A stretch of 52,465 nucleotides of DNA from a bacterium (GTDB lineage: Bacteria > UBP14 > UBA6098 > 4484-93). The stretch is from positions 1-52,465 of the forward strand of contig JAGGUN010000026.1 of assembly GCA_021158465.1 (NCBI GenBank), read 5' to 3'. A model generated the notes under the pieces. The model made no database searches and was not told where the DNA came from. It saw only the letters and a list, made by a program, of their open reading frames with translations. Position numbers and translations under genes: made by a program. This document shows, piece after piece, positions 15,262 through 51,462 of this stretch (the stretch's first letter is position 1; each line of letters opens with the position of its first letter).

Positions 15262-18038
15262 TGATTAAACGGATTTCTGTTCTTGTTGTGTTAATTTCTT
15301 TGGCTTTGCCATCTTTTCTCTTCGCCGGTGCAAGGGAGGCTTCCCTCCTTTGGTCTGACCCACAGTCTCTCGGTCTCCTGAACCCGGCTTCTGTATCCAG
15401 TGTCTCGGGAAGGGTTTTGATAGGCTCGGTCTCAAGGTATCAGTATGGTCTCCCAGAAGCCCAGTATATGCGTTTTTCCATCTTCGGAGGAATAGGATTA
15501 AATAAGCTCGGGAGTCTGGGCTTGGGAATATTCCAGGAATCTTTGAACGGTTACACTAACAGTCGTTTCCATCTTGGGGGAGCGCATCGGTTCTCTCTTC
15601 CTAATGGGGTTCTCTTATCTGCTGGTGCTTACGGGAAGCTCATTTTGAACCGGTTTGACAGAGAAAGGTTCCATAGATTTGATGAGGATGACCCTATCTT
15701 CAGCTCTGGTTATACGAGCTATGCTTTCTCGGCAGATTTGGGAGTAGGTTTTTTATGGAGGGATTTTGGGCTTGGGTTGTCTGTCAGGGATGTGAACGAG
15801 CCGAACCTTTCGTTTGCTTCTCATCCGTCATGGAAGCTCCCGATGGTGGTATCGGGTGGTATCTCCTATCGGTTTCGTGATATGTTTTCTGTTTTCGCCT
15901 CCGTCTGTTATACGAAAGCTTTTGATGAGCCAGTTTTCTCTATGGGGATGGAGGGGAGCCTTTCTGGTTTTGCTCTTCGGGCAGCGACGGATGTCGACAA
16001 TCTTGGTTTTGGTGCCGGATATATGTTCGGGCTTGGGAAAATCTCACGGCTTGGTGTGGATTATGCGGTTGTTCTTCCTCTGACGGAGCTTTCGAAGGTT
16101 GGAGTGAGTAGTCATGAACTCTCCTTGCGGCTCGTCTTTCCTCCGCCTACTTCGAAGCCTAAACGGTTCCCTGACCTGACCATTCTTTCCGCTTCACTTG
16201 AGAAGGACAGGTTTGCCCTCGGTGATTCAACACGCCTGACTTTTGTTGTCGCGAACATAGGGAAGAAGAAGAGCGATAGTTTCAAGGTTACATCCTTTCT
16301 TGTCTCTCCAGACACGGCGAATATGCTTTTCTCGAAGAAACTTCCTTTGCTATCCCCGGGAGAGAGAAAGGAGGTATCTTTTCTGGTTTCACCGGATGCC
16401 GATGGTGAGTATCGGCTCATTATAAATGTTGACGATACGGGAGAACTCTTCCCCGAGGTTTCTGGCAGTGTTACAGAGAGTAATGAGGAGAATAACACCA
16501 GTTTCCTCACATTTTCGGTTTTCAGGAGGACAACTGCCCGTCTTGAGCCACTTTATTCCACCCTTGAGCTTCTGGATGTTTCTGTTCTGGCGGACGAAGC
16601 TCCTGTTATTCCTGTTGTCTTCTTCGAGCGGGGGAGCCCGGAGCTCCCTGAGCGGTTTTTTACATCTTTGAGAACCGTCGCCGAGCGGATAAAGTGTAAT
16701 CCTGATATCCGCCTGGTTATTAAAGGATATATTGACCCGGAAAGCGAGCAAGATGTCCCTGACAAGACTGGGCTTGCAAGGCTCCGAGCAGAGAATATAA
16801 GGTCAAAGCTTATCGAGTTTGGCGCACCCTCCTCAAGGATTACCGTAGCCGCACCGGATAGGTACGATGTGACGGAGCAGAGGATAGTCCCGAGGTTCCC
16901 TGTGTTGACAGAGAAAGATAGGCGTTGGATATCAGAGGAAAATCGCAGGGGAGAAATAGTATCCGAGTTTATGGAACCCTTCCCTACGAGCGTTGTTGTC
17001 GAATCTCCAGATAGGATAACCAAGCTTTCGGAGCTGCTTTCCATCTGGAAGAGAATCCTTTCCTCTAATCCAGATGTCCAGGTTCTTGTTGGTGCTAACA
17101 AAGGAGATGCGCCGTTAGTTGCACTTGACCGTATGGAAGAAGTGCGAAGTAGATTGAACAGGATTTTAGGCACGAAGCCATCGGTTATGTTTGTCGAAGA
17201 CCTTCCCCCGGGGAAGATAGGGATATATCTGAATGCGGACCACCTTTTGTACAGTCCGAGGGAGTATTTTGTGTCCAAGGATATCAGGTTCGGGGACGAG
17301 TCTCAGAAGGAGAATATTGTCAGGCTTGAGCTTGCAACAGCAGTTCCGATAGACACATACTTTGTAAGTGTTGTCGATGACGCAGGGAATCTGGTCAAGG
17401 AGCTTGGTGGGGGCGAAGGGACTCCGCCTATGAGCTTCATCTGGGACTGGACGAACTGTGATGGTAGCATTGTTAATCCTGAGAGGCGCTATTTTGTGAG
17501 GTTAGAGTTGACCGATTCTCTTGGCTCCCATATCCAGACCCTCTCGCCTCCTCTGGAGGTGAAAACTCGTGCTGTAACGGAAAAGAGAGAGTCCTGGATT
17601 ATAATCCAGTTTGTTTTCGATGAGGTTTCTTCTGTATCATATTTCTTTGATAGCCGTCTTGAAGAGTTTGTACAGAGGCTTGTGGAGCTTGCAAGGTCAG
17701 GAAAGCCACTTGTCGTTCGAATAACCGGGCACACAGATAAGATTGGCAGACCGGAGCACAATCGAAGGCTCTCTGTTCAACGGGCTGAGCAAAAATATGA
17801 AGAGTTTTCTTACCATCTTATGCACCGGCTTGGCATCTCGAGGAAGGAGGAGCTTGACCGCTGGCTTGCCGAGCATGATGTTAAGATTGAGGTTCGTGGT
17901 GTCTCGAGCGACGAGCCTCTAACTGTTATGGTGACAAAAGACGGCAGGGTAGAGGAATCTCTTCTCGGGGATGATAACCTCCCCGAGGGGCGCTCAATGA
18001 ATAGACGCGTTACCATTGAGTTTATCACAGGAGAGTGA
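15258..18038 (+). CDS. PorP/SprF-like barrel-CARDB-OmpA-FlgD-OmpA fusion protein (paralog 2)
   Basis: This 926-residue protein overlaps the previous stop by 4 bases (ATGA). After a signal peptide (1 to about 23) comes a barrel (about 24-300) whose strings LLNPAS and [16 protein letters not shown] recall the PorP/SprF family of type IX-associated outer-membrane proteins. A CARDB domain (about 305-425, ending [10 protein letters not shown]), an OmpA-like domain (about 447-572, [11 protein letters not shown] to SEENRRGEI) and a weak OmpA-like segment follow. A FlgD-like domain ([10 protein letters not shown]) and a canonical OmpA domain (about 779-926) complete it. Asp827 in GHTDKIG and Arg842 in LSVQRA keep the 15-residue peptidoglycan-binding spacing. 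SprF-type proteins work with an adjacent giant adhesin, and here two such proteins lie just upstream. Function by analogy only. Confidence 0.83.
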
Positions 18039-33359: not shown

Positions 33360-35513
33360 CTACATTATTTTTTCGATCTTTACCATTCTATCGGGCTTGA
33401 GGTTTCCTTCCTCGAGCATCTTCTTTGATATGATGGCGACATCTCCTTCCTTGTGCGGCTCGCCGAGGTGTATATGGAGTGAACGCAATCCTCCGAGGTA
33501 CCATCTGCTGTCTGCGATATACATCAGGTCGCCGACCTCTGCCTTGAGCTTCTCCATTGCATCCTCTGGCAAGTGGAGCAAACTGTCCTCCTCATCAGCG
33601 ACCTTAAGCGGCAGTTTCACCTTTTTGCCAACAATGTCGTTCGGCTTGCCACCCTTGAAACGAGTTCTACCTTCCTGGATTGTCCAGATGGTAAGTCCTG
33701 CCAGGTCCTTTTTCTCGTCACGCTTTGTGGAGAGGGTCAGGATAACCGCCACGAGAAGTGTTACTAAGAGCCCAAACAACGCCCGGAAGTATCCGAAATT
33801 TCCGCCTGTTTTCACAAAACCAGCGGCAGATGGACCCCCCTCTTCCTTGCCTACGACTTCCACGGCATATCTTGTGCGGGGTTTCAGGTTAGGCATATAC
33901 GCTGAGTAACGATAGAATGTTCTGCCAGCAAGTTGCTCAGTGTAAACATAGGCAGGAACCTCGTTTGTGTAGTTGCCAGGTTCTGTCCCGTAGCGTAGGA
34001 CAAACTTGTCTGTTGGCTTGCCTACGGGTTTCTTCACGCTTGCTTTCCGTATCATTGTGGGAGTTGGGTCATTGTTGACGGTATACCAGGTGACGGTTAG
34101 GTCGTGTCCTGTATCCATACCGTGCGTCAGAGCGAGCGGTTTGATCATATCAGGGGCAAGGAGTGATGAGAAGACGACAACCGCTCCTATCAGTATTGAC
34201 CAGAAGGCTGCCTTTGCGTTGAACCGCTTCCAGAGGATGCCAAGGAATATTGCAACGACCACTGGTGGCGTGATGATACCGACGAATGCATAGTGTGCAG
34301 CGAAGAGTGAACGGCTTGTGGAGAACGGCCAGACGAGGGCGAGTCCGAGGATGGTTGCTCCAACGGAGAAGATACGGGCGACCTTGAGATAGTGTTTATC
34401 TGGTGCATCCTTCCTGATATATGCCTTATAGATATCGAATACTCCTATCGCTGTGCAGGCGTTTATCAGTGTATCGATTGTGGACATAAGGGCGGCTGTC
34501 AGTGCAGCTATCACGAATCCGAATACACCTGGTCGGCAGATGATATTTGTTGCGACGACGAATGTGTGTTTCGGGTTTGCCAGTATATCGGCAGCAGCAG
34601 ACGCGGGGAAAATTCCCTTGGCAATTGCAGATGCCGCCATCCAGCCGACATTCCCAACGACAACAGCAGAAATCGGCATCAGGATAAGCGTGTTCCAGGT
34701 CAGGCATTTTCTTCCCTCATTGACGCTCTTTATCGCAAGATATCGCATTATGAAACCCTGATTCATAAAGGTGAAAGCAAGTGTTCCGACCACTCCCTCC
34801 GACCAGAATATCCCGAATAGGTTAAAATCGCTCGGTCGATTGAACCCTGGAAACGGCATCCTGTGTGCGAGGTCAAGCCCTTCCCACCAGCTGTGGATCC
34901 CTCCAAGATACCTCAGTCCGAGATAGAGCAAGAGCCCTCCTGCAAGGTAAAGAAAAGCCCCCTGCACAAGATCAGTAAATATTACAGCCGTCTGACCACC
35001 GAGGGTTACATATATTGCGGAGATTATAGCCACTGTGATGACAGAATATACAATCGGTATTCCGAGGAGCGATTCCATCGCAATACCGAGCAGATAGAAG
35101 TTGAAGCCGATGTATCCGAGAAGGTAAAGCAGAATAAGCACTGTTGCAATTACTCGGGTTCGCTCATCGAATCGGCGCTGGAAATACTCGGGAATGGATT
35201 TTATCCTCGCAAAATATATTATCGGCATCCAGCCGAACATAAAGAACGGTATGATGAACCAGTCGTTAAGATATGTCAATGTCGATGACATCCCTCGCTC
35301 GAACCCTGCTTGAGCGTATTTGATAAAACTGTATGAACCGATTCCCGTTGCAACGAGACTTGCAGCAATCAGCCACCAGGAAAAACGCTGCCCTCCGAAG
35401 AAGAAATCCTTTGTAGTCTTTGAGAACCTGCCAAAGTAGCTCCCAAAGAGCAGAATTCCAGCAAAGTATACAGCGACTATCACATAATCAATTGGTGTGC
35501 CAAGCATATGCAT
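33360..35513 (-). CDS. Sodium:solute symporter (SSS family) with extracytoplasmic insert and C-terminal domain
   Basis: The 717-residue protein starts with a typical SSS/SLC5 core: an N-terminal helix (IDYVIVAVYFAGILLFG), then SFSWWL-type and SIPEYFQRRF strings and about twelve membrane helices up to residue 455. Residues about 460-570 form a soluble beta domain with DLTVTWYT, FVLRYGTEPG, LKPRTRYAVEV. This recalls fibronectin III/purple-acid-phosphatase N-terminal domains. A further membrane helix (about 577-597) and a roughly 120-residue cytoplasmic tail follow. Normal SSS transporters are about 480-600 residues, so both additions are unusual. The small two-helix protein encoded 16 bases upstream is probably an accessory subunit. 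The substrate cannot be told; other SSS members carry sugars, amino acids, carboxylates or vitamins. An AAGGAGAG precedes the chosen ATG. Confidence 0.85.
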   Translation of the reverse strand: MHMLGTPIDYVIVAVYFAGILLFGSYFGRFSKTTKDFFFGGQRFSWWLIAASLVATGIGSYSFIKYAQAGFERGMSSTLTYLNDWFIIPFFMFGWMPIIYFARIKSIPEYFQRRFDERTRVIATVLILLYLLGYIGFNFYLLGIAMESLLGIPIVYSVITVAIISAIYVTLGGQTAVIFTDLVQGAFLYLAGGLLLYLGLRYLGGIHSWWEGLDLAHRMPFPGFNRPSDFNLFGIFWSEGVVGTLAFTFMNQGFIMRYLAIKSVNEGRKCLTWNTLILMPISAVVVGNVGWMAASAIAKGIFPASAAADILANPKHTFVVATNIICRPGVFGFVIAALTAALMSTIDTLINACTAIGVFDIYKAYIRKDAPDKHYLKVARIFSVGATILGLALVWPFSTSRSLFAAHYAFVGIITPPVVVAIFLGILWKRFNAKAAFWSILIGAVVVFSSLLAPDMIKPLALTHGMDTGHDLTVTWYTVNNDPTPTMIRKASVKKPVGKPTDKFVLRYGTEPGNYTNEVPAYVYTEQLAGRTFYRYSAYMPNLKPRTRYAVEVVGKEEGGPSAAGFVKTGGNFGYFRALFGLLVTLLVAVILTLSTKRDEKKDLAGLTIWTIQEGRTRFKGGKPNDIVGKKVKLPLKVADEEDSLLHLPEDAMEKLKAEVGDLMYIADSRWYLGGLRSLHIHLGEPHKEGDVAIISKKMLEEGNLKPDRMVKIEKIM

Positions 35514-35827: not shown

Positions 35828-36574
35828 ATGAAACTCACCCGTGTGGAGGGTATTGTTATACGGGTGACGCAATACGCTGAGACGAGCCTTATTGTGAACC
35901 TGTTTACACCCGAGCGCGGTAAAATAGGTCTTATGTTAAAGGGGGCAAGGAGACCCAAAAGCCAGCTTTCTGCTATATTTGACTTCTTCAATCTTGTGGA
36001 GGTGGTCTTCTACGATAAGGAAGGTGCAAATCTTTACCTTGGCAGCCAGGCAACCTTGGTGAGTGACTTCCCTGGTCTTGTGAAGGACCTCGAGGCATAC
36101 AATTATGCTGTTTTTGGGATTGAGGTAGTTGATAAACTTTTCCCGCCGGAGGAGGCAAGCAGAGAAGGATACAGGTACCTTCTCGAATATCTAACGATTC
36201 TCGACTCCGGTGAAAGTGCGAGGAAGTTCGAGCTTCTGAGAGCCTCGTATTACTTGAAGATGCTGACCATAGCAGGGTACCAGCCTCAGTTTTCTGAATG
36301 TATTGTCTGCCACAAAAAGGAGAACCTTCATAAGATTTTCTTCTCACCTCTATCTGGTGGGATAGTATGCGGAGATTGCGCTGGAAACCTCTCGGAGCTT
36401 ATCAAAATGGATGAAGGGATAAGGAGGCTCCTTTTAGCACTCCGTTCCTCCCCACTGTCTGATTTTAGAAGGTTTGCTGCATCAACAAGTCAGATAGAGA
36501 CTATCAACAGGATATTAAAGGATTTTACCGTTTACCAGTCTCTGGAGATAAGAACATTAACAGCAGAGAGATGA
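35828..36574 (+). CDS. recO: DNA repair protein RecO
   Basis: RecO works in the RecFOR pathway, loading RecA onto single-stranded DNA coated with SSB. The 248-residue product shows an N-terminal OB-fold (VEGIVIRVTQYAETSLIVNLFT). A C-terminal helical domain carries a zinc-finger-like motif with Cys158, Cys161, Cys181 and Cys184 (CIVC ... CGDC). An in-frame ATG exists at 35750, but its extension of 26 residues has no resemblance to RecO. The ATG at 35828 has an AGAGG site and begins directly with the family's usual start. The stop overlaps the next start by 4 bases. Confidence 0.92.
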   Translation: MKLTRVEGIVIRVTQYAETSLIVNLFTPERGKIGLMLKGARRPKSQLSAIFDFFNLVEVVFYDKEGANLYLGSQATLVSDFPGLVKDLEAYNYAVFGIEVVDKLFPPEEASREGYRYLLEYLTILDSGESARKFELLRASYYLKMLTIAGYQPQFSECIVCHKKENLHKIFFSPLSGGIVCGDCAGNLSELIKMDEGIRRLLLALRSSPLSDFRRFAASTSQIETINRILKDFTVYQSLEIRTLTAER

Positions 36575-39420
36575 AATATCTGGTCACAATTTTAGCTATT
36601 ATCTTCTTCTTCTCGGCGGCGGTAGCAAGTGATGTAACGGATGTTGCCTATCCGAGTGGTATGGGTGCTGCTTATACAGCTATCTCCGATGGTGGGACCT
36701 CGTTCTTCTACAATCCTGCCGGTGCCTCGACTGTGAAGGGGTATCTTTTCTACGTTGGTTATCAGAACCTATTCTTTAACCTCTCGGAGGACAATCTTAA
36801 CTCCGGCTTCTTTGGTATGATACTGCCGTGGAAAAGGTGTGTGATGGAAGGTGCGCCTTTGCGGATAGGTGCGGGGTTGGGGTTTTGCTACTTCAATTCG
36901 GATATATACTCAAAGACGACATTTTCGCCCGTTGTAGCTGTGAGTTTCCTGAACCATGAGGATTTCTTTGGTAGGGTAGAGAAGAGGGCGCATGTTGGTT
37001 TCCGTTGTAGGTTTTGTAGAGAGCAGTTTAATCCTGATTATGCACGAGACCCGTTTGACCCGCTTCTCTCTGAGAAGGAACCCTGGCGTTCCTTCCTCGA
37101 TGCTGGAGCGATGCTGACATTCGGACATGCGAGTTTGGGCATTTCTGCTCGAAACCTTCTGGCATCTTCCCTTTCCGGTAGTAAGGGCGTTTTTCCTCCG
37201 CTCGGTATTCGCCTGGGGATGGCGGTTGATATGTCACCTTTGCTTTTCTCCGCTGAGGTAGGTTACTCTGACGGCGGATACACGCCGCACCTTGGGTTGA
37301 GCTGGTCTCTTCAGAACGGGTTTGACCTTATGTGTGGGCTTAACTCGAAGCACTGGGCGACAATGGGACTCGGATTTAGGTTAATGAATTCACGGTTCGG
37401 GTATTCTATTGAGATACCGGTTCTCGATGCGCCGGGTGAACTGACAAACCATAGGATATCGGTCGAGTATTCTCTACCCAGATACGATTATCCTGATTTA
37501 TCCGTCAAACTTGACCCAACGGTTGTTGAGTTCCGCTGCGGTGAGCCGCCAGATCTTGTCAATATCACAGGAACGGTCAAAAGGGGCTGGTGTAAGATAT
37601 ACACCCCTGGCTTCGTCTATCTTGGACTTTACACCGCCGACCCTCGCCGCTCTACTCCTGTGGCAAATATGGAAATTCCTATCGATTCCCTGAACGAAGG
37701 GGGATATCGCTTTGCATTCCACGGGGTCCCGTATGACCTTGTTGAGGGAAAGAGAGTCTACATCGGAGTGGACTATACAAATCGTGTATATGAGAAGAGG
37801 TTGAAGAATAACTATGTTCCTCTTGTTGTCAAGCGAGTCGAGCATTGTATTGATCTTATGGTCAACTCCGTTGATGGGAGTGAGGAACCGCTCGTCATCG
37901 ATAGAGTGGCTACCCTCAATCTGGATATATCTTCCACCAACGACTACCCCATTGATACGACAGTCTCCTTGCTTCTCTTCTCCGACAGGGGGGATACGGT
38001 GGCTGCCACCATGCTTCCTGGCGGTTTTCTTTCGAAACGCTCAAATAGGGTTACTGTTGATTTTCTACCCGATTCAACCTTTTTGGATGTGGATACGCTG
38101 TTCTTCGTTATCGATGCTGGGGAGGCTATCCCTGAATCAGATGAGGAGAACAATCTTTTCTCGTTTCCTGTTCTCTTTCAGAGACCTCTTGGGGAGCTTT
38201 CCATTACCCAGAAGCCTGTTGTGTATGATGCTACGCTTTCGCAGGAGCCGCTTGTTCCTGTGGTGTATTTTGCGCCGGGGGCAGATACCCTCGTATTATC
38301 GGATGAGTATAACATCGAGGACCTCAACAGGCTTGGTGAGAGGCTTTCAGCCAACGATAGGATAAAGGTTACCCTCTACGGATATTCTGATATTCTATCC
38401 GATGCAGACTGTTTCAACCTCGACACTGTTTCATTCAAGGATAATCCAGCGGAATGGCGGGCGAATGTTTCTCGGATAAAGAAGAGAGTTCTTTCTGTGG
38501 AGAAATATCGCCTCAAAAGCCTTGCGAGGATGCGAGCAAAGTCGGTAAAGAGGTATCTTGTGAAGAACTTTGGCATCGAGCCGGCGAGGGTATTGCTTGC
38601 AACGGGGTATGATGAGTTTGAGGGTATTAACAACAATCTTCGTCCTGACCCTATCAGCTGGTTTGAGAACAGGCGTGTGGAGATAAGGACGGATAAGAGT
38701 TCACGGAGCGAGCTTTATGCTCCGGAGTATCTTGTCGACGGGGCAGACCCAGCTGACTCGCTCTACTATATCGATATACGAGGTGATGGGATGATCGGTG
38801 GCAGTCTGGATGTTTTTATTCTTGATGAGTATGAGGATACGATCGCCGTTCTGGTAAGGGGTGTTAAGGTCAACTCATCGCCGTATCGTGTCTTCTGGGA
38901 TGGAAGGGGGCTTGAGTTGGGAAGGCAGTACAGGATAAAGGCTGTATTGAGGAATGATCAGCAGGTTAGGGCAGCTGAGTCCCCGCTCGATTTCTTCGCC
39001 AGGGAAAGCATCTATTTTGTTGCACTGTTTAACTTTGGTGAACCCACAAAAAAGAGGGGTTTGTCGGATGTTCTTGCTTACTTCAGTCCAGATTTGGAGT
39101 ATGCCGAGCATGCGGTTAGAACAGCGATAAAGGAAGCGAGAGAAAAGGGAGTTGATATCACACTTCAGAGCTATGCCTCCTACCTCGATGGGACAGCAGG
39201 GGAGTTTGATAATATAAAGCTGGCTGAGAGGAGAGCCTCTTTTGTCCGTCGGATGTTTTCCCTCCGCGAGGACGAGATAGCGACAGTAATCTGTGGAGAT
39301 GTTTGCGAGCGTGAAGGTAGCGGTTGTGACCCTATTTGGTGTAGCAACGAGCAGCTCCAGAAGACGCATCCGAAGAACAGAGTGCTTCTGCGGGCAACAA
39401 TCCTCAAGATTGAGTATTAG
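36571..39420 (+). CDS. Barrel-CARDB-CARDB-OmpA-FlgD-OmpA envelope fusion protein (paralog 3)
   Basis: The 949-residue protein has a signal peptide (1-19) and a PorV/UPF0164-like barrel (about 20-300, SGMGAAYTAIS and FYNPAGAS). Two CARDB-type domains follow (about 310-425 and 427-535, the second ending DEENNLFSF), then an OmpA-like domain (about 559-708, VPVVYFAPGAD to FENRRVEIRT). A FlgD-like domain (about 725-810, YRVFWDGRG) and a C-terminal OmpA domain (about 813-949) complete it. Asp873 and Arg888 keep the 15-residue spacing of peptidoglycan-binding OmpA. The last domain has a Cys-rich loop (CGDVCEREGSGCDPIWC) not present in the other two paralogs. It is co-transcribed with recO by a 4-base overlap. 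Its stop overlaps the converging amidohydrolase gene by 17 bases. Confidence 0.83.
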   Translation: MKYLVTILAIIFFFSAAVASDVTDVAYPSGMGAAYTAISDGGTSFFYNPAGASTVKGYLFYVGYQNLFFNLSEDNLNSGFFGMILPWKRCVMEGAPLRIGAGLGFCYFNSDIYSKTTFSPVVAVSFLNHEDFFGRVEKRAHVGFRCRFCREQFNPDYARDPFDPLLSEKEPWRSFLDAGAMLTFGHASLGISARNLLASSLSGSKGVFPPLGIRLGMAVDMSPLLFSAEVGYSDGGYTPHLGLSWSLQNGFDLMCGLNSKHWATMGLGFRLMNSRFGYSIEIPVLDAPGELTNHRISVEYSLPRYDYPDLSVKLDPTVVEFRCGEPPDLVNITGTVKRGWCKIYTPGFVYLGLYTADPRRSTPVANMEIPIDSLNEGGYRFAFHGVPYDLVEGKRVYIGVDYTNRVYEKRLKNNYVPLVVKRVEHCIDLMVNSVDGSEEPLVIDRVATLNLDISSTNDYPIDTTVSLLLFSDRGDTVAATMLPGGFLSKRSNRVTVDFLPDSTFLDVDTLFFVIDAGEAIPESDEENNLFSFPVLFQRPLGELSITQKPVVYDATLSQEPLVPVVYFAPGADTLVLSDEYNIEDLNRLGERLSANDRIKVTLYGYSDILSDADCFNLDTVSFKDNPAEWRANVSRIKKRVLSVEKYRLKSLARMRAKSVKRYLVKNFGIEPARVLLATGYDEFEGINNNLRPDPISWFENRRVEIRTDKSSRSELYAPEYLVDGADPADSLYYIDIRGDGMIGGSLDVFILDEYEDTIAVLVRGVKVNSSPYRVFWDGRGLELGRQYRIKAVLRNDQQVRAAESPLDFFARESIYFVALFNFGEPTKKRGLSDVLAYFSPDLEYAEHAVRTAIKEAREKGVDITLQSYASYLDGTAGEFDNIKLAERRASFVRRMFSLREDEIATVICGDVCEREGSGCDPIWCSNEQLQKTHPKNRVLLRATILKIEY

Positions 39421-40885: not shown

Positions 40886-42074
40886 AGAGCACCTTCAAGG
40901 ATAGATATGTCGAGATGAAGTTATCCTCTGTAGTCTTGTGCCACTCCGGGCTGTAGGAGAAGATGGCGTCCAGCTTGCACCTTTCGGAGAAACGAATACT
41001 ACCCAGAAGTGATAGCTCAGTGAAGAAGTAATCCGAATATATAGAAAATTCGCCAAGTTTCCTGAAGAACCTGTATCCTGGCGAGACAGTGGCGTCAAGC
41101 CAGAGCCATTGTGGAGAGCTTATTGTTCCGGTTATGTCGCATCTTACATCCGTCCAGTTCTCGCCATCGTAGAGCGTGTCTGCACTGTGATGCTCAAACG
41201 AGGGAACTGCACCAACAGAGTATTTCTCCGTTATATATGAGATGCCAGCGCCTCCCTTTATGTCTCTGTAGTCGAACCAAACGAAGTTCTCATACTCCGT
41301 TTTCAAGACTGTGTAATCGAATCTCGCGGGGAGCGAGATGTTAAAGTTGGGTGAATACTCCACCTCGAGCGAAACCGTGTTCTTCCAGGAGCTCGGATTT
41401 ATCTCACCTTTGTAATCCTTGTAGATAAGCTCATCCTCTCCGGATAACCTGTAACCTGAAAGGAGCTGTTTCTCGAATAAGAGCTCTGTTCCTGCTTCAG
41501 AGTAACATAGGTCAACAGAATCTGGTACAATGTAACCCGTTGTTTGCACAGAGAGAGATATGTCTCTGTCGAAGAAGAGGTAATTTCTCAGCTCCCCTTC
41601 CAGATGGAGCATATGATAATCGTTTCCCGGAGGGCTGGCGCCTGTATAAAATCTGCTTGTTAGATACCCGCTAAGCTCTGTCGTCCAGCTGTTGGTTAGA
41701 GAATGTTTCCAGCTTCCCTTGAGGTAGCTTTTTACATAATCTTTATTGCGCTTCTCGTAATGTGCTTTCCCGTATAGTTTCTCATACAGCCGAATACTCT
41801 TTCCAAGCCTTGCTTCACCCTGTAAGGAGAGATGCGTCGCCTCGGTTCCTGCATATCCGTTTAACTCTATGTTATATGTGTTGTTGTCATCATTTATATC
41901 AAGTGAATTATAAAGGAATAGCTTCAACTCGTTGTCAATTTCGGTAGTATCAGCTTCAATTAAACGGTATCTTTGGGTTATATTATCGTATCCGAGCCCT
42001 ATTCTTGTCGTGAGTTCTGCCTTTGCTGTGGAGCTAAAGAGTATAATAAGGATGATTATGCTGCTCGTTCTCAT
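40875..42074 (-). CDS. Outer-membrane beta-barrel protein of unknown function
   Basis: The 399-residue product has a signal peptide (MRTSSIIILIILFSSTAKA) followed by many alternating amphipathic strands such as YNIELNGYAGTEA and LSLQGEARLG. It ends in LKVLYEF with the terminal Phe expected of BAM substrates. No known family is recognised; a 16-20-strand barrel is plausible from length. It overlaps the stop of the alpha-subunit gene by 4 bases, so it is translated from the ATP synthase transcript, occupying the place where atpG would be expected. Confidence 0.75.
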   Translation of the reverse strand: MRTSSIIILIILFSSTAKAELTTRIGLGYDNITQRYRLIEADTTEIDNELKLFLYNSLDINDDNNTYNIELNGYAGTEATHLSLQGEARLGKSIRLYEKLYGKAHYEKRNKDYVKSYLKGSWKHSLTNSWTTELSGYLTSRFYTGASPPGNDYHMLHLEGELRNYLFFDRDISLSVQTTGYIVPDSVDLCYSEAGTELLFEKQLLSGYRLSGEDELIYKDYKGEINPSSWKNTVSLEVEYSPNFNISLPARFDYTVLKTEYENFVWFDYRDIKGGAGISYITEKYSVGAVPSFEHHSADTLYDGENWTDVRCDITGTISSPQWLWLDATVSPGYRFFRKLGEFSIYSDYFFTELSLLGSIRFSERCKLDAIFSYSPEWHKTTEDNFISTYLSLKVLYEF

Positions 42075-43804
42075 TTAGATGCCGCTATCTGGTCGATTTT
42101 CTCTGTTATTGTTCTATCGAGTGTTTGCTTTTCGGCTATGTAGTTGACGAGCTTTGGGGCTATGCTTTTGATCTTTGAGATGATCTGTTTTTCCCGTGTT
42201 GCCACCTCGGACAGCGGGAACTTGTCAAAGTATCCTTTTGTTCCGAGGTAGATGGATATAATCTCCTCGTGCATCGGCATAGGGGAGAACTGTTTTTGCT
42301 TCATAAGTTCGAGCAGGTGTTCTCCCCGTATGAGTCGAGAGCGTGTTTCGGGGTCGAGCTCGACGCCGAGCTGAGCGAAGGAGGCGAGTTCTCTATATTG
42401 TGCGAGAAAGAGTCTTAGTGGTACGCCTAATTCTTTCATAGCAGGGCACTGGGCGTTCCCACCGACTCTCGAGACCGACAGTCCTATGTTGACTGCTGGG
42501 CGGATACCGGAGAGGAAGAGCTCTCGTTCAAGGTATATCTGTCCGTCGGTGATGGAGATGAGGTTTGTTGGGATGTACCCGGTGATATCGCCGGCGAGTG
42601 CTTCGACGATCGGGAGTGCGGTCATTGAGCCTCCGCCTTTTTCCCGTGATAGGCGAGCTGAGCGTTCGAGCAGTCGCGAGTGGATGTAGAAGATGTCGCC
42701 TGGATAGGCTTCCCTTCCTGGGGGGTGCTTGACCAGTAGGGATATCTCTCTGTATGCTCTGGCGTGTTTTGTTAGGTCGTCGTAGACAACGAGTGTGTCC
42801 TGCCCGCGGTACATAAAGTATTCGGCTATGGTGCAGGCTACGTATGCACTGATGTATTTGACGGCGGCGGGTGCGTATGCTGGTGCCGCAACGACGACTG
42901 TGTAGTCGCTGGCTCCAAGTTCGCGCAGTTTTTTCAGCGTTCTTGCGATGCTTGATGATTTCTGTCCGATGGCAGCGTATACGCAAATGACGCCTTTGCC
43001 CTTCTGGTTTATTATGGTGTCTATTGCTATGGCAGTTTTTCCTGTGTTTCTATCGCCGATTATAAGCTCGCGCTGTCCTCTTCCGATGGGTATGAGGGCA
43101 TCTATAACCTTTATTCCTGTTTCGAGTGGCACCGACACTGGCTCTCTGTCTACTATACCAGGTGCTTTCATCTCTATTGGGCGGCGCTGTTTTGCGTTTA
43201 TCGGTCCCTTTCCATCGACGGGTGCGCCCAGTGGGTTTATGACCCTTCCGAGCAGTTCCTCTCCTACGGGAACCGAGGCTGGTATTCCGAGGGCATCTAC
43301 CCAGTCGCCCTCCTTGACGATGCTTTCCTGGGAGAATATCATTGTTCCTATTTTCTCTTTGTCCAGAGAGAACGCCATTCCGAGGTGTCCTGTGCCGAAC
43401 CGGACGAGTTCGCCGCTTTTAAGGTGTTCCAATCCCTTGAGCCATGCGACTCCGTCGCCGACAGATACCACTTCTCCGAGCTCACGTTTCTCGATAACAG
43501 TTGTCCCGGAGGTGATGCTGTTTTTTGCCGTTGAGATGAAGCTCCTTAGTGCCTTCGTTGGGTCTACATCGTCTGATATGTAAAGCTCCTCCGAGAGAAG
43601 CTGGGACTTTATGTTGTTCAGTTTCCGCTTGAAGCTTGCGTCGTATATCTTGTAGCCTATCCTTGCCACTATTCCGCCTGCAAGTCGACTGTTCAGTACG
43701 GTGTGTATCTCGAACTTACCAAGAACAGGGAACAGTTCCCTTTTTATCATTTTTTTCTGTTCGTCTGTCAGCGGGAACGGGGTCTCGATTGAGATAACCT
43801 TCAT
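42071..43804 (-). CDS. atpA: F-type ATP synthase alpha subunit with fused delta C-terminal domain
   Basis: The 577-residue protein is about 70 residues longer than normal alpha. Residues about 12-70 (LTDEQKKMIKREL, AGGIVARIGYKIYDAS, RKLNNIKSQL) match the C-terminal domain of the delta subunit (OSCP), which joins the peripheral stalk. From about residue 82 the sequence is alpha: the N-terminal GEVVSVGDGVAWLKGL, Walker A GDRNTGKT at 250-257, and Arg446 in VSRVGGNAQ. The N-terminal helical domain of delta is missing and no separate atpH is visible. No ATG, GTG or TTG lies in frame between residue 20 and residue 111, so a normal-size alpha cannot simply be started internally. It overlaps atpF by 4 bases (ATGA). 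Fusion is directly visible; consequences for subunit stoichiometry are inferred. Confidence 0.93.
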   Translation of the reverse strand: MKVISIETPFPLTDEQKKMIKRELFPVLGKFEIHTVLNSRLAGGIVARIGYKIYDASFKRKLNNIKSQLLSEELYISDDVDPTKALRSFISTAKNSITSGTTVIEKRELGEVVSVGDGVAWLKGLEHLKSGELVRFGTGHLGMAFSLDKEKIGTMIFSQESIVKEGDWVDALGIPASVPVGEELLGRVINPLGAPVDGKGPINAKQRRPIEMKAPGIVDREPVSVPLETGIKVIDALIPIGRGQRELIIGDRNTGKTAIAIDTIINQKGKGVICVYAAIGQKSSSIARTLKKLRELGASDYTVVVAAPAYAPAAVKYISAYVACTIAEYFMYRGQDTLVVYDDLTKHARAYREISLLVKHPPGREAYPGDIFYIHSRLLERSARLSREKGGGSMTALPIVEALAGDITGYIPTNLISITDGQIYLERELFLSGIRPAVNIGLSVSRVGGNAQCPAMKELGVPLRLFLAQYRELASFAQLGVELDPETRSRLIRGEHLLELMKQKQFSPMPMHEEIISIYLGTKGYFDKFPLSEVATREKQIISKIKSIAPKLVNYIAEKQTLDRTITEKIDQIAASK

Positions 43805-44295
43805 TTGCTATGCTCGCTCTTCACGAGGTTCACAAACTCGTTGAGCATCCTTTCTTGAAGCTTTGGCTTGACGCTTTCTCCGAGTATATTTGAGGCGATT
43901 GTGATGGCGAGGCTCACTATCTCATCCTTTAGCTCGAGGATAAATCTTTTTTTGAGTTCCTCCCCTTCCTTTCGGGCGTTTTCGATAATCTGCTGGGATT
44001 CCCTTCTTGCTTCCCTTATTATTTTTGTCCGCTCGGCTTCTGCATCGAGCTCTGCCTTCTTGATGATCTCTTCTGCCTTCTTGTATATTTCCTGAAGGTT
44101 TCTTTCTGCCTCTTTTCTTTCTTTCTCGAGTTTTTCCCTTTCGATTTCGATTTCCTTGAGGGTAGATTCAATCTTTTTTCGTCGTTCGTTCAGGATGCGT
44201 TTCACTGGTTTGTACAGGAGGTATGTCAGAATGCCAACGAGGACAAGGAAGTTTATAATCTGGACTATTATTCCTGTGAGTGTTATCTGTTCCAT
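43801..44295 (-). CDS. atpF: F-type ATP synthase subunit b
   Basis: The 164-residue peripheral-stalk subunit has one N-terminal membrane helix (about 5-27, IIVQIINFLVLVGILTYLLY) ending in KPVKRILNERRKKIE. A long charged coiled-coil rich in Glu, Lys and Arg extends to about residue 120, and the C-terminal part (VSLAITIASNILGE) would meet delta. Length is normal. The stop overlaps the start of the delta-alpha gene by 4 bases. Confidence 0.95.
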   Translation of the reverse strand: MEQITLTGIIVQIINFLVLVGILTYLLYKPVKRILNERRKKIESTLKEIEIEREKLEKERKEAERNLQEIYKKAEEIIKKAELDAEAERTKIIREARRESQQIIENARKEGEELKKRFILELKDEIVSLAITIASNILGESVKPKLQERMLNEFVNLVKSEHSK

Positions 44296-44314
44296 TCACT
44301 CTCCAGGGCGTGTT

Positions 44315-44581
44315 TTAGTGCACGAAGTACTTTATGAACGGGTTGGCATACAGGATGATGAGAGCGATGACAAGGACATATATGACCAATGATTCTATCA
44401 TTGCCAGACCGATAATTAGGTTGGTTCGTATACTGTTTCCAGCCTCTGGCTGGCGGGCAATGCTTTCGAGTGCCTTGGAGACGCTTTTCCCCATACTGAA
44501 GGCGCCACCGATTGCAGCGGCGGACAGTGCAAAGCCTGCTGTTACCACACATACGAGTAAGAATGTCTCAAGCCCTGTCAT
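44315..44581 (-). CDS. atpE: F-type ATP synthase subunit c
   Basis: The 88-residue rotor-ring subunit has two membrane helices joined by the polar ARQPEA loop (42-47). The ion-carrying Glu63 is followed by Ser64 and, later, Tyr68 ([21 protein letters not shown]), as in sodium-type c subunits such as Ilyobacter. The helix-1 position that is Gln in sodium-type rings is Met30 here. The coupling ion is therefore not clear. It starts 2 bases after the EIIA stop with a GGTGGAG site inside that gene, so translation is probably coupled. Confidence 0.95.
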
Positions 44582-44583
44582 CT

Positions 44584-45066
44584 TTATCGCTCCACCTTTG
44601 TTACTATCGGAATCGAGTTTAACACGCCTTTTATCTTCTCTTCGGTCTCAGCCTCGAGCAGTTTTTGGTAGAAGTCTCCGCTTCCGATTGCCTCAGAGAT
44701 GGAGGAGAGTATCTTTATATGGGCTTCGGAGTCCTTCTTCGGTGTGACCACAAGGAAGAATAGGTATGCTGGCTCGCCGTCGAGGGAGTCGAATTCAACA
44801 CCTTCCTTTATCCTGCCGAAGCTACCGATGGGGCCTTCTATATTTTCATAGTGGCAGTGTGGTATGGCAAGTCCGTTCCCTATTCCAGTGCTAACTATCA
44901 TCTCCCGTTCAAGCACTGCCTCAAGTATCGCTTTCCGCTTCTCCATGTCTATGATACAAGCATCGAACAGGATATCGATAAGCTCTTCTATGACACCCTC
45001 TTTTGTACTGCTTGCCAGGTCTGGCTTTATCCTGAAGGCAACGAACATGTCGAGAAATCTTTCCAT
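44584..45066 (-). CDS. PTS EIIA (fructose/nitrogen-type) domain protein
   Basis: The 160-residue single-domain protein matches the EIIA-2/PtsN family. The phosphorylatable His70 lies in [10 protein letters not shown], followed by a [14 protein letters not shown] string and [19 protein letters not shown]. Such proteins are phosphorylated by HPr-like carriers; PtsN-type members regulate potassium transport, nitrogen and stress responses rather than import sugar. It sits between atpB and atpE inside the ATP synthase operon, 9 bases after atpB and 2 bases before atpE. No other PTS gene is in the window, so a regulatory role is more likely than sugar uptake (inference). Confidence 0.88.
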
Positions 45067-45075
45067 TGTTTTCTC

Positions 45076-45900
45076 CTATTTTCTTTCGGGTAGCTCCTCC
45101 ATCGCGCCGCAGATATAGAGTGTGGCGAGTAGCACGAAGATGAATGTCTGGATGATGCTTGTGAATATCGCCAGAAACATTACCGGCAGTGGTGCGCCGA
45201 GTGGGGCGAGGGAGAAGACGCCAAGTGTCACAAGCAGAAGTTTTGTCAACCCTTTGTATTTTGGCGAGAGTTTTCCAAACCGTCTGATAAGGAATACTGT
45301 CACGAATCCAACGATAAATACCGGGTATACCTTCAGAAGCAGCACCTTCTTCATAGCAATCACGATCAGGCTGACAAGGAAATACAGCATTGCAAGTGTC
45401 TTATCTTCCCCCATTATATTTCCGAACAGCCTGACAGAGAGTGAGAGCGGTCTTGCTATCTCGCTGACTATGTGTATCGGCAGAAGGATTGGGGCGAGGA
45501 ATATGTTGTTCCCCGTGAACTGCTTGAGATAGCTAACTCCAAGCTCTTTGAAACCGACAAAATGTGTCGAGAAAAAGACGACGAGAGCCAGGGCAACAGT
45601 TGTGTTGAGTGAGGATGTCGGTGAGATGAATCCTGGAACAAGCCCTATGAGGTTTGAGAGCAGGATAAATATCCCGAGTGTGCCGAGCAACGGCAGGAAC
45701 CTGGGTCCATTGCTTGAGAAGGACAGAAGCAGATTCTCGATAGACTCGAGAACATATTCGATGAAATTCTGCAGACTGCCGGGGATAATCGATAGGTGTC
45801 TTGTGGCAAGGTAAGAAACAGCGATTATCACTGCCATAACGAACCAGCTGTTGGTGATGTAGCCGGGAATGCCGTTTATATGTAATATTGTAAATTTCAT
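45076..45900 (-). CDS. atpB: F-type ATP synthase subunit a
   Basis: The 274-residue stator channel subunit has five to six membrane helices. The essential Arg157 is in LSLSVRLFGN, and GLVPGFISPTSSLNTTVALA precedes it as usual. A further long helix pair ends in LATLYICGAMEE. It is the first gene of the atp operon. The promoter lies directly upstream and leaves only about 8-10 leader bases, without a recognisable Shine-Dalgarno site. Confidence 0.95.
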   Translation of the reverse strand: MKFTILHINGIPGYITNSWFVMAVIIAVSYLATRHLSIIPGSLQNFIEYVLESIENLLLSFSSNGPRFLPLLGTLGIFILLSNLIGLVPGFISPTSSLNTTVALALVVFFSTHFVGFKELGVSYLKQFTGNNIFLAPILLPIHIVSEIARPLSLSVRLFGNIMGEDKTLAMLYFLVSLIVIAMKKVLLLKVYPVFIVGFVTVFLIRRFGKLSPKYKGLTKLLLVTLGVFSLAPLGAPLPVMFLAIFTSIIQTFIFVLLATLYICGAMEELPERK

Positions 45901-48897: not shown

Positions 48898-48925
48898 GAG
48901 GTTTTTCTCTTTGGGAAGAGATAAA

Positions 48926-48955
48926 GGGATGCCCACAGTTTCCCGCAGACATCCC
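48926..48955 (-). terminator. Rho-independent terminator after the clan CD peptidase gene
   Basis: Read on the minus strand, an 11-bp stem (GGGATGTCTGC with GTGGGCATCCC, three G-T pairs) encloses an 8-base loop and is followed by TTTATCTCTT. It lies 22 bases after the stop of the peptidase-like gene and separates it from the DUF89 operon. Confidence 0.7.
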
Positions 48956-48977
48956 CGTAAAAGATTTTCGTATGAGG

Positions 48978-51371
48978 CTACTTCAACAGAAGCATCTTCC
49001 TCTTTTTCGTGCCGAAATCGGTCTTTATCTCATACAGATATACGCCGGTTGGCAGATTGTCTGCATTAAATTTGACAAGATGATAGCCGGCGGGGAAATT
49101 CTCATTCTCGACAACTGTTTCGATTTTCTCGCCGAGTATGTTGAACACATCGAGCGTAACCTTCGACTCATCGGGGAGAGCGAACGAGATATTGGTGCTT
49201 GAGTTGAACGGGTTCGGGAAGTTGGCGAAGAGCTTAAACCTGTCGGGGATTTTCCTTGTCGGTTCATCCACACTGACCTCATACCAGTTGAAACTGCTCC
49301 TTATTCCCCAGGCGTCGAACTCAAACGCCAGGGGAGAGCCAGAGGTGGAGAAGTATATTGAACCGACATCGAGCATCTCCGGGCTTTCCTCCATTTCCCA
49401 CATCATATAGGCACCGAGATGGACCTGATAAACTCCTGGCTCGTATATGTCTAAATAGTGCCAGGGGAATTCTGCACCCTCCATCGCTATATACAGTTCA
49501 CCGGGGTTTATAACCTCAGCGATGTCGAGGTTAAGGTAGATATCCTCCCAGGATAGGTTTGGCTCATAGTAGAAGCCGACATTGAGGTCTGTGACTCCTA
49601 TACCTTCTCCCATAAATCTTGGGAGTTCGGTCAGCTCGATGCCAAGTGTGTCGTGAAAGACAGTCCAGGGAGATTCGACTATCTCCCCGAATTCCTCTCC
49701 ATTGCCATCGTTGAAACCGTAAGAAGGTCCAACGAAATCGTAGTTTATCAGCCGTGATTGTGGGTGCTCCTGAGTATAACATTGTGTAACTCTCATAGTG
49801 AATGTGCTGTCCTCGTTGTGTATTATGAAATGTCCTGTGGATGAGCTGTCGGCGTTTAGATACCGGACATTATTCCCCTCAGTATAGCCGATGGAGCCGG
49901 GTATATTCCAGTTCCAGCTACCGACTTCCCTGTGTGAGCCATCACTGTTGACCTCATAGATGGTGACATTCCCGCAGCTGGAGGAATTACCCTCAAACTT
50001 TATCTCTACCTGCCCGCCGGGTGGGACATATATTCGTACGGAATCGCAGAAGCCTATGGTAGGAATGATTGTTTTACATATTCCCTTGCCGATGGCGTTT
50101 CTTCTCCTATTCACGGACTCCCGCCATTTTACGGTATCTCTGACCCATTTCTCGCGTCTAACCGAATCGACCGTTCCGGGTGGATGGCGCTCGAGCCAGG
50201 CTCTAACCGAGTCTATATTTTCTTCAATCTGCCTGATTCTTCTCCTTAGATAATTCTCATAGTTTTGCTTTGCTCCCCTGACAGCCCCTTCATACGAGGA
50301 ATCAGCCATCAGCAGAGCGAGTTTCTCCTTGAGCCATTCATCTCCGCTGGTTGGTGACCATGAACGGCCGGTTGTGCCCGAGGATGAGCTGATATGGATC
50401 CTCGCCTTGCCCTTTGGGTCGAGACCCGAGACGCCGACAGCTGTGCTGCCACCATAACATTGGTTGAACTCATCGTATATCTCGTCGCAACAGGAGTCGA
50501 TGATTGCCTGCTGCATCTCTTTCAGCGAATCAGCTGTAAGCGTGTCGCCGTCACGCAAACGGATGGCACCGCCTGGACTGCCGTGGTTTCCCACAAACTT
50601 CTGAAAAGTTGCGGTTGTATCCCCGCAATCCCGGGCAATTCTTGCCGCAATAGAATCGTGAACTGCCCTTATATTCGACATCGTAGCAGCCTGCACCATC
50701 GAATCGGGAATGTTTGCCGGGTCAGGGTTACGAGTACCATCGTCGTAGAGAACAAATACATTTTCCTTACAATATCCTGCTGAGTCCTTGTATTCGTAGA
50801 AGTTCTTGATATCGTTTTCAAAAGCTTCTCTTCTCCCTCTGCCGGAGTTCTTTGCCACAATTGCAACAGCAAACTTGCAGGGGTCACACTCTTCATCGAG
50901 CAACCCTTTGCCATCTTCTTCTCTATCCTTCCGGGGTGCTTCTCCTTTGCTACCGCCTGTATCGGGGAACATAGACGGGAACATTATCTCGTAATCCAGC
51001 GGCTCAATAAGTATCTCGAGTGTGTCATCAGGATAGATTGGGTCGGGGTCCGTTCGCCTGCTGAGGATGCCTCTCACGATGATGCCACCTCCATACCAGG
51101 CACTATCGGGTGGCGGAGGGTCAAGCACGAAGATCACCGAAAACGGTGGGGGATATTCGGTGGAAAGATAATCGTCGTAAAAATCGAAGAGCAACTGCTC
51201 CTCTGGCGTAGTATAATACCCTATAACAGAGACGGTATCTCCGTCGGCAAGCTCGGGCAGTGCATCGTAAAGCCCGGGAATAGTGTAGGTTACATCCTGT
51301 CCCGTTGCAGGAATGCATAGACAGGCGAAGAATAGCAACAGTAGCACCGGTAAGGAAATGTTCTTTGACAT
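48978..51371 (-). CDS. Secreted clan CD cysteine peptidase-like protein with type A-like sorting domain
   Basis: The 797-residue product has a signal peptide (SKNISLPVLLLLFFACLCIPATG) and a beta-rich N-terminal part. The caspase-like domain at about 160-360 has the His of VGNHGSPGG at about 263 and the Cys of FNQCYGGS at about 305, the dyad layout of clan CD peptidases (legumain, gingipain, clostripain). A coiled segment with Arg/Glu and a beta region follow, and the tail holds ANFPNPFNSSTNISF, LDVFNILGEKI, TGVYLYEI and ends in MLLLK, a type A T9SS-like sorting domain. An open frame starts earlier at 51443, but the ATG at 51371 has GAGGAGG at 51377-51383 and gives the signal peptide directly. 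Proteolysis is inferred from the dyad only. Confidence 0.82.
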   Translation of the reverse strand: MSKNISLPVLLLLFFACLCIPATGQDVTYTIPGLYDALPELADGDTVSVIGYYTTPEEQLLFDFYDDYLSTEYPPPFSVIFVLDPPPPDSAWYGGGIIVRGILSRRTDPDPIYPDDTLEILIEPLDYEIMFPSMFPDTGGSKGEAPRKDREEDGKGLLDEECDPCKFAVAIVAKNSGRGRREAFENDIKNFYEYKDSAGYCKENVFVLYDDGTRNPDPANIPDSMVQAATMSNIRAVHDSIAARIARDCGDTTATFQKFVGNHGSPGGAIRLRDGDTLTADSLKEMQQAIIDSCCDEIYDEFNQCYGGSTAVGVSGLDPKGKARIHISSSSGTTGRSWSPTSGDEWLKEKLALLMADSSYEGAVRGAKQNYENYLRRRIRQIEENIDSVRAWLERHPPGTVDSVRREKWVRDTVKWRESVNRRRNAIGKGICKTIIPTIGFCDSVRIYVPPGGQVEIKFEGNSSSCGNVTIYEVNSDGSHREVGSWNWNIPGSIGYTEGNNVRYLNADSSSTGHFIIHNEDSTFTMRVTQCYTQEHPQSRLINYDFVGPSYGFNDGNGEEFGEIVESPWTVFHDTLGIELTELPRFMGEGIGVTDLNVGFYYEPNLSWEDIYLNLDIAEVINPGELYIAMEGAEFPWHYLDIYEPGVYQVHLGAYMMWEMEESPEMLDVGSIYFSTSGSPLAFEFDAWGIRSSFNWYEVSVDEPTRKIPDRFKLFANFPNPFNSSTNISFALPDESKVTLDVFNILGEKIETVVENENFPAGYHLVKFNADNLPTGVYLYEIKTDFGTKKRKMLLLK

Positions 51372-51433
51372 CTTAACCTCCTCGATAATAATGAATGTTT
51401 TAACTATTTTATCTTTGCCTTTTACCGTATAGA

Positions 51434-51462
51434 AAAATAACATATAAATACTAAAAAGTCAA
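51434..51462 (-). promoter_or_regulatory. Promoter of the clan CD peptidase-like gene
   Basis: On the minus strand TTGACT (51462-51457) is followed after 17 bases by TATTTT (51439-51434), in a strongly A/T-rich stretch. The predicted leader of about 55 bases carries the GAGGAGG ribosome-binding site ahead of the ATG at 51371. Confidence 0.55.

Follow-up and report, generated by a model that had tools for sequence, protein, structure and literature searches.

A probable T9SS-exported cysteine endopeptidase from the legumain-like part of clan CD in a bacterium of the UBP14 lineage

Introduction

Which kind of enzyme, if any, is made by the minus-strand gene at positions 48978-51371 of a 52,465-nucleotide stretch of DNA (here called the window) from a bacterium of the UBP14 lineage, whose genome is a 2.0-Mb draft assembly? 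A sequence-only reading of this gene had seen in its product a secreted clan CD cysteine peptidase with a T9SS-like tail, close to no family that could be named, and had raised the prospect of a maturation protease related to the gingipains and PorU of family C25. Here we compare the protein with the C13, C25, C14 and C11 peptidases by model, profile and tree, and conclude with good confidence that it is a secreted cysteine endopeptidase, exported by T9SS and belonging to the legumain-like (C13-like) enzymes of clan CD, its activity and its export both being predicted. Among the papers searched, none dealt with C13 together with T9SS.

Results

The gene and the layout of its product

The open reading frame and its translation, the homologues and the ratio of substitution rates all support a whole gene at 48978..51371 (-), encoding a C13-like peptidase of 797 residues. 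In its longest form the frame starts at 51443; a ribosome-binding site read from the sequence, GAGGAGG (51377..51383, (-)), just precedes the ATG at 51371, which is therefore the right start, and the stop codon occupies 48980-48978. Coordinates, strand and start had thus been placed correctly before. Comparison with the congener genome gave a dN/dS of about 0.05 over residues 25-797, showing that the gene is under purifying selection, and no repeats of note were found inside it. A consensus scan marked a possible promoter, TTGACT-17-TATTTT, its second hexamer preceded by TG (51434..51462, (-)), such matches occurring near the chance count, and a terminator-like hairpin of 14 pairs just 3' of the gene (48925..48956, (-)). 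The hairpin suggests transcription as a single-gene transcript.

The product begins with a signal peptide, residues 1-24 (MSKNISLPVLLLLFFACLCIPATG/QD; 51300..51371, (-)), read from the sequence; the congener protein has another hydrophobic leader, which ends just ahead of an identical QDVTYTIP. Next comes an N-terminal beta domain, residues 25-135 (YTIPxLYxxL..GDTVxVxGYYT..; 50967..51299, (-)), delimited by the family alignment and the model and common to the whole family; its strand order makes it a candidate OB-like domain. The catalytic caspase/hemoglobinase-fold domain spans residues 158-376 (50244..50900, (-)) according to the model, Foldseek and hhalign, and runs into a helical segment, residues 360-426 (50094..50294, (-)), seen in model and alignment and varying in length within the family. 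Beta domains conserved family-wide fill residues 431-700 (WNWNxPGS ... IHNDxG ... WGLRS; 49272..50081, (-)) and are probably sugar- or surface-binding. When the model of the whole protein was submitted to Foldseek, GH2 enzymes were mixed with legumains in the resulting list, legumains first; the GH2 enzymes presumably match the beta domains. At the C-terminus, residues 718-794 form a T9SS type A sorting domain (48990..49220, (-); PF18962 5.4e-10, TIGR04183 7.8e-9). As an observation on N-terminal variety, one family member (L045:196-2763) carries an N-terminal cupredoxin domain.

An invariant catalytic dyad

Both motifs that had suggested a clan CD dyad, VGNHGSPGG and FNQCYGG, are present, and His263 and Cys305 lie exactly 42 residues apart. 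Across the 15 aligned sequences the two lie 41-42 residues apart, except in four members whose inserted loop widens the distance to 51. The catalytic His263 (NHG; 50583..50585, (-)) stands just after beta3 and Cys305 (QCYGG; 50457..50459, (-)) just after beta4. Since both residues are invariant in 15/15 aligned sequences, whose source MAGs bear several different phylum labels, the dyad is not a product of chance. It is kept also in two further members, G208 and G170, which were added by a broader profile search, making 17/17, and in all aligned C13 outgroup proteins. Gly264, after the His, and Gly308, three after the Cys, are invariant too in the family alignments.

Near-full-length homologues share 30-97% identity in the family alignment; the congener homologue is 97% identical to the window protein, and the other aligned members 30-38% when the full alignment is counted. 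They occur in 7/17 genomes of the phylum, its own genome counted and several of the 17 being incomplete. A species-level genome collection yielded 14 loci, in part identical with records already obtained; MAGs among them are labelled, as given in the records, Zixibacteria, Eisenbacteria, Bacteroidetes/Bacteroidales and Elusimicrobia. No viral relative was found in IMG/VR, and fold matches in BFVD were mostly generic caspase-like and VWA proteins. Against anti-phage defence proteins the window domain gave no match, and matches elsewhere were incoherent and confined to single members.

Three family loci deserve a remark as records. Downstream of the protein of L035 (696-3554), a frame at 3762-4439 begins similarly to the N-terminus of that protein and is a possible tandem copy. 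The L042 homologue (2258-4707) is split by an apparent frameshift, as is a radical SAM gene upstream of the homologue of L032 (L032:1897-2830), in both cases probably an assembly error.

The conservation bears on whether this is an enzyme at all. A protein that had kept the fold while becoming catalytically dead or purely structural, a pseudo-enzyme adhesin, might be expected from beta domains that make up about half of the 797 residues in the model, and from the variation at positions aligned with the S1 residues of legumain. We think this quite unlikely, given that His and Cys are invariant in 17/17 members though identity outside the congener is 30-40%, and given the strong purifying selection and the invariant glycines directly after the His and three residues after the Cys.

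The fold points to C13

Single-sequence searches with the window protein, Pfam and NCBIfam among them, gave no match to a peptidase family. PF01650 matched neither the window protein, nor anything else in its genome, nor any of the 7 family members scanned, and a sequence search of the PDB returned nothing significant, with metacaspase-4 at an E-value of 0.85 only. At this level the protein is indeed close to no family that can be named; at the level of profile and fold it is C13-like, as follows.

A model of residues 158-376, the catalytic domain, drew on 15 family members and reached a pLDDT of 89.3 and a pTM of 0.88. The order of elements in the model is beta1-alpha1-beta2-alpha2-beta3(His)-alpha3-beta4(Cys)-alpha4-beta5. 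In the caspase/haemoglobinase fold as defined, the His follows beta3 and the Cys follows beta4 (PMC4357240), so that the model has the core of this fold, and the clan CD assignment of the dyad stands. Foldseek was run against the PDB with this predicted domain model as the query, rather than a solved structure. Ranks 1-49 were all legumains, asparaginyl endopeptidases/ligases or the GPI transamidase subunit, and caspase-7 followed at rank 50. The best E-value was 3.2e-8, and TM-scores, normalised to the query, were 0.57-0.73; the rmsd of 5-7.5 A is large, so the matches indicate kinship of fold and not near identity.

For the profile comparison, Pfam C13 matches from other bacteria were aligned and compared by hhalign with the family profile. 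The two matched with a probability of 98 and an E-value of 3.4e-14, His falling on His and Cys on Cys. The score of 96.5 compares with a mean of 12.8 (sd 2.2) for 60 column-shuffled versions, about 37 SD above them. In addition, the family profile recovers Pfam C13 proteins of four genomes (G117, G092, G136, G005) at E-values of 1e-10 to 1e-7. One canonical legumain-like protein taken alone (L058) gave a weak link (probability 20, E 0.001).

The other families fared differently in the comparison that had been proposed. Membership of C25 was rejected on two grounds: a profile of the eight C25 proteins that score highest in this genome gave an hhalign probability of 0.2 and z 0.7 against shuffled versions, similarity at the shuffled level, and none of the 50 best PDB fold matches is a gingipain. 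Nor is the window frame among the 9 matches to PF01364 in its own genome. For C14 the signal was weak (probability 4.4, E 0.009, z 4.2), with an approximate match of His to His and Cys to Cys, which is consistent with distant clan kinship only. C11 was rejected as well, with a probability of 0.8 over 17 columns, a figure that comes without a shuffle test.

Export and the question of T9SS maturation

The tail that had been called T9SS-like scores above the cut-offs of both models, Por_Secre_tail (PF18962) with 39.9 bits against 27 (E 5.4e-10) and TIGR04183 with 35.6 against 23. The genome encodes its own PorU, which scores 608 bits where the cut-off is 420, and a SprA that likewise exceeds its cut-off, and it is rich in T9SS tails, with 93 further matches to the sorting tail of the window protein at E <= 0.01.

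The same genome (G000, loci L001-L008) has nine Peptidase_C25 matches over the cut-off. The window itself holds three plus-strand proteins, at 12352-15261, 15258-18038 and 36571-39420, that combine a PorP/SprF-like part with a CARDB region and an OmpA domain; their PorP/SprF and TraF_2 scores are partly below the cut-offs. The first two are preceded at 7121-12337 by a protein of 1738 residues with a borderline CHU_C tail.

In other lineages the C-termini differ. The Zixibacteria members end in dockerin-like repeats, recognised by reading the sequence (Pfam gave no score), and the G208 and G170 members in FnIII-like sequence. The enzyme has thus been paired with different export or attachment ends. 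These results weigh against taking the protein for a C25 enzyme of the gingipain/PorU type with a role in maturing T9SS cargo. The idea is naturally invited by the T9SS tail of a clan CD protein whose genome encodes about 90 such tails. Besides the C25 similarity at the shuffled level, set against the strong C13 match, and the absence of gingipains from the top 50 folds, PorU and SprA are encoded elsewhere in the genome, the family is present in only 7/17 genomes of the phylum (several of these incomplete), and members of other lineages carry repeat or FnIII-like ends in place of T9SS tails. We judge a C25 maturase very improbable, and neither the tie to gingipains and PorU nor the role in T9SS maturation is supported. 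The C13-like endopeptidase remains the preferred reading.

Linkage of homologues to the giant surface proteins of the window was looked for, and no conserved linkage was found. Of the neighbouring genes, those for radical SAM/SPASM and ARMT1-like proteins are conserved in the congener alone, and hence no functional hint comes from operon or partner genes. Further along the window, the minus-strand genes at 42071-45900 read as ATP synthase subunits a, c and b and an alpha subunit whose N-terminus is unusually extended. A PTS EIIA-like gene (44584-45066) breaks up the series, after which there comes an outer-membrane-like protein and no gamma or beta gene. At 33360-35513 (-) a single protein joins a sodium:solute symporter domain to a purple acid phosphatase N-terminal (FnIII-like) domain.

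A distinct branch beside bacterial C13

A tree of the catalytic domain groups the 17 family members as a monophyletic branch (support 100/99), with six bacterial C13 proteins next to it; L058, the only legumain-like sequence included, forms a long branch whose placement is unsure. Four cysteines mark the branch in 17/17 members: Cys162-x-x-Cys165 (50877..50888, (-)), Cys201 (50769..50771, (-)) and Cys249 (50625..50627, (-)). All are found in 0/7 outgroup proteins, a count that for Cys162 and Cys165 applies to the sequences as aligned, the outgroup rows being cropped close to these positions. Secondary structure would place the four close to the edge of the sheet on the side away from the active site, where they may form either disulfides or a structural metal site. 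A Glu two residues before the catalytic Cys is found in 0/17 members, as against 5/7 outgroup proteins. The branch is small, divergent and previously unlabelled, with no match to a Pfam or NCBIfam peptidase model in the members scanned.

The probable S1 pocket also differs. In legumain, Arg44 and His45 form part of the S1 pocket that reads Asn/Asp (PMC4357240). Ala183 (50823..50825, (-)) aligns with Arg44, a mapping that is tentative in this variable region. The aligned residue is A in the window protein and its congener, R/K in 11/17 members and R in 6/7 outgroup proteins. Cleavage after Asn is accordingly not to be assumed.

The residues around the dyad raise the most interesting rival, that the protein is a C13-like peptide ligase or transpeptidase, joining peptides or attaching proteins to a surface acceptor. 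The nearest folds include both kinds of enzyme, with plant asparaginyl ligases and the GPI transamidase subunit among them, and the residue after Cys305 in the family is Tyr or Phe, not the Glu190 brake of legumain; residues around the legumain dyad (Asn42, Glu190, Ser215) tune the balance between protease and ligase (PMC9604545). On the other hand, fold similarity does not part ligases from proteases within C13, the Arg44-equivalent position is changed, and no dedicated acceptor gene or conserved neighbour accompanies the gene. A ligase is, in our estimate, unlikely. A broader proposal can be made tentatively: the 17 proteins might be the first of a clan CD family or subfamily in its own right, a sister group of bacterial C13 whose members bear four cysteines in a structural cluster, prefer to cleave after a residue other than asparagine or act as ligases, and serve uncultured bacteria at their surface. 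We regard this as possible, short of probable.

Discussion

The observations allow us to outline how a secreted C13-like endopeptidase could act. The protein would be exported by its Sec signal peptide and would then probably pass through the outer membrane by T9SS. Its sorting tail would be removed or exchanged by the separate PorU of the genome, leaving the enzyme extracellular or on the surface. There Cys305 would attack the scissile peptide bond with His263 as proton donor/acceptor, as in legumain, while the N- and C-terminal beta domains probably hold the enzyme on its substrate, on sugar or on a surface. Its likely job would be to break down or process proteins outside the cell, in company with the gingipain-type (C25) peptidases that the genome also encodes.

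If so, the family adds a secreted legumain-like branch whose members current Pfam and NCBIfam models miss as peptidases. Little is known of exported proteolysis in the lineages concerned, among them Zixibacteria-like, Eisenbacteria-labelled and Bacteroidota ones. The family also suggests, for genomes with a T9SS, the use of C13-like peptidases next to those of gingipain type. Family C13 holds both proteases and peptide ligases, and with its probable S1 pocket changed the branch offers a natural comparison for shifts of specificity in clan CD.

Among known systems, the gingipains and PorU of C25 are likewise clan CD enzymes with T9SS type A tails and occur in the same genome, but show no profile similarity above shuffled controls and no place among the top fold matches. 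The catalytic subunit of GPI transamidase (PIG-K/GPI8), an extracytoplasmic C13 enzyme, is among the top fold matches; it works by transamidation in a membrane complex, whereas no such partners are seen for the window protein. Legumain, the asparaginyl endopeptidase of plants and animals (C13), is the nearest solved fold. The His-Gly motif is common to both, and the dyad is spaced by 41 residues in human legumain (His148, Cys189) as against 42 here. They differ in Arg44 and His45 of the S1 pocket, replaced by Ala183 and Phe184 in a sequence alignment of a variable region, and in Glu190 after the Cys, replaced by Tyr. The C-terminal LSAM prodomain of legumain has no clear match in the window protein, in which a helical segment of variable length follows the catalytic domain, and the bacterial export tail has no counterpart in legumain.

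Bacterial secreted Peptidase_C13 proteins (PF01650; L118 in G005, L119 in G092, L120 in G136) share the same core, with His and Cys in register. The branch described here adds to that core four invariant cysteines, an invariant Gln288 and Glu/Asp301; it lacks the Glu two residues before the Cys, has other N- and C-terminal domains and goes unseen by PF01650. Many of its members nonetheless start the domain in a similar way (SGG..NN..RYW), and the bacterial C13 proteins are also secreted and multidomain, L119 with a dockerin and L120 with a T9SS tail. The last of these, a Pfam C13 protein, provides a precedent for a C13 protein with a T9SS tail.
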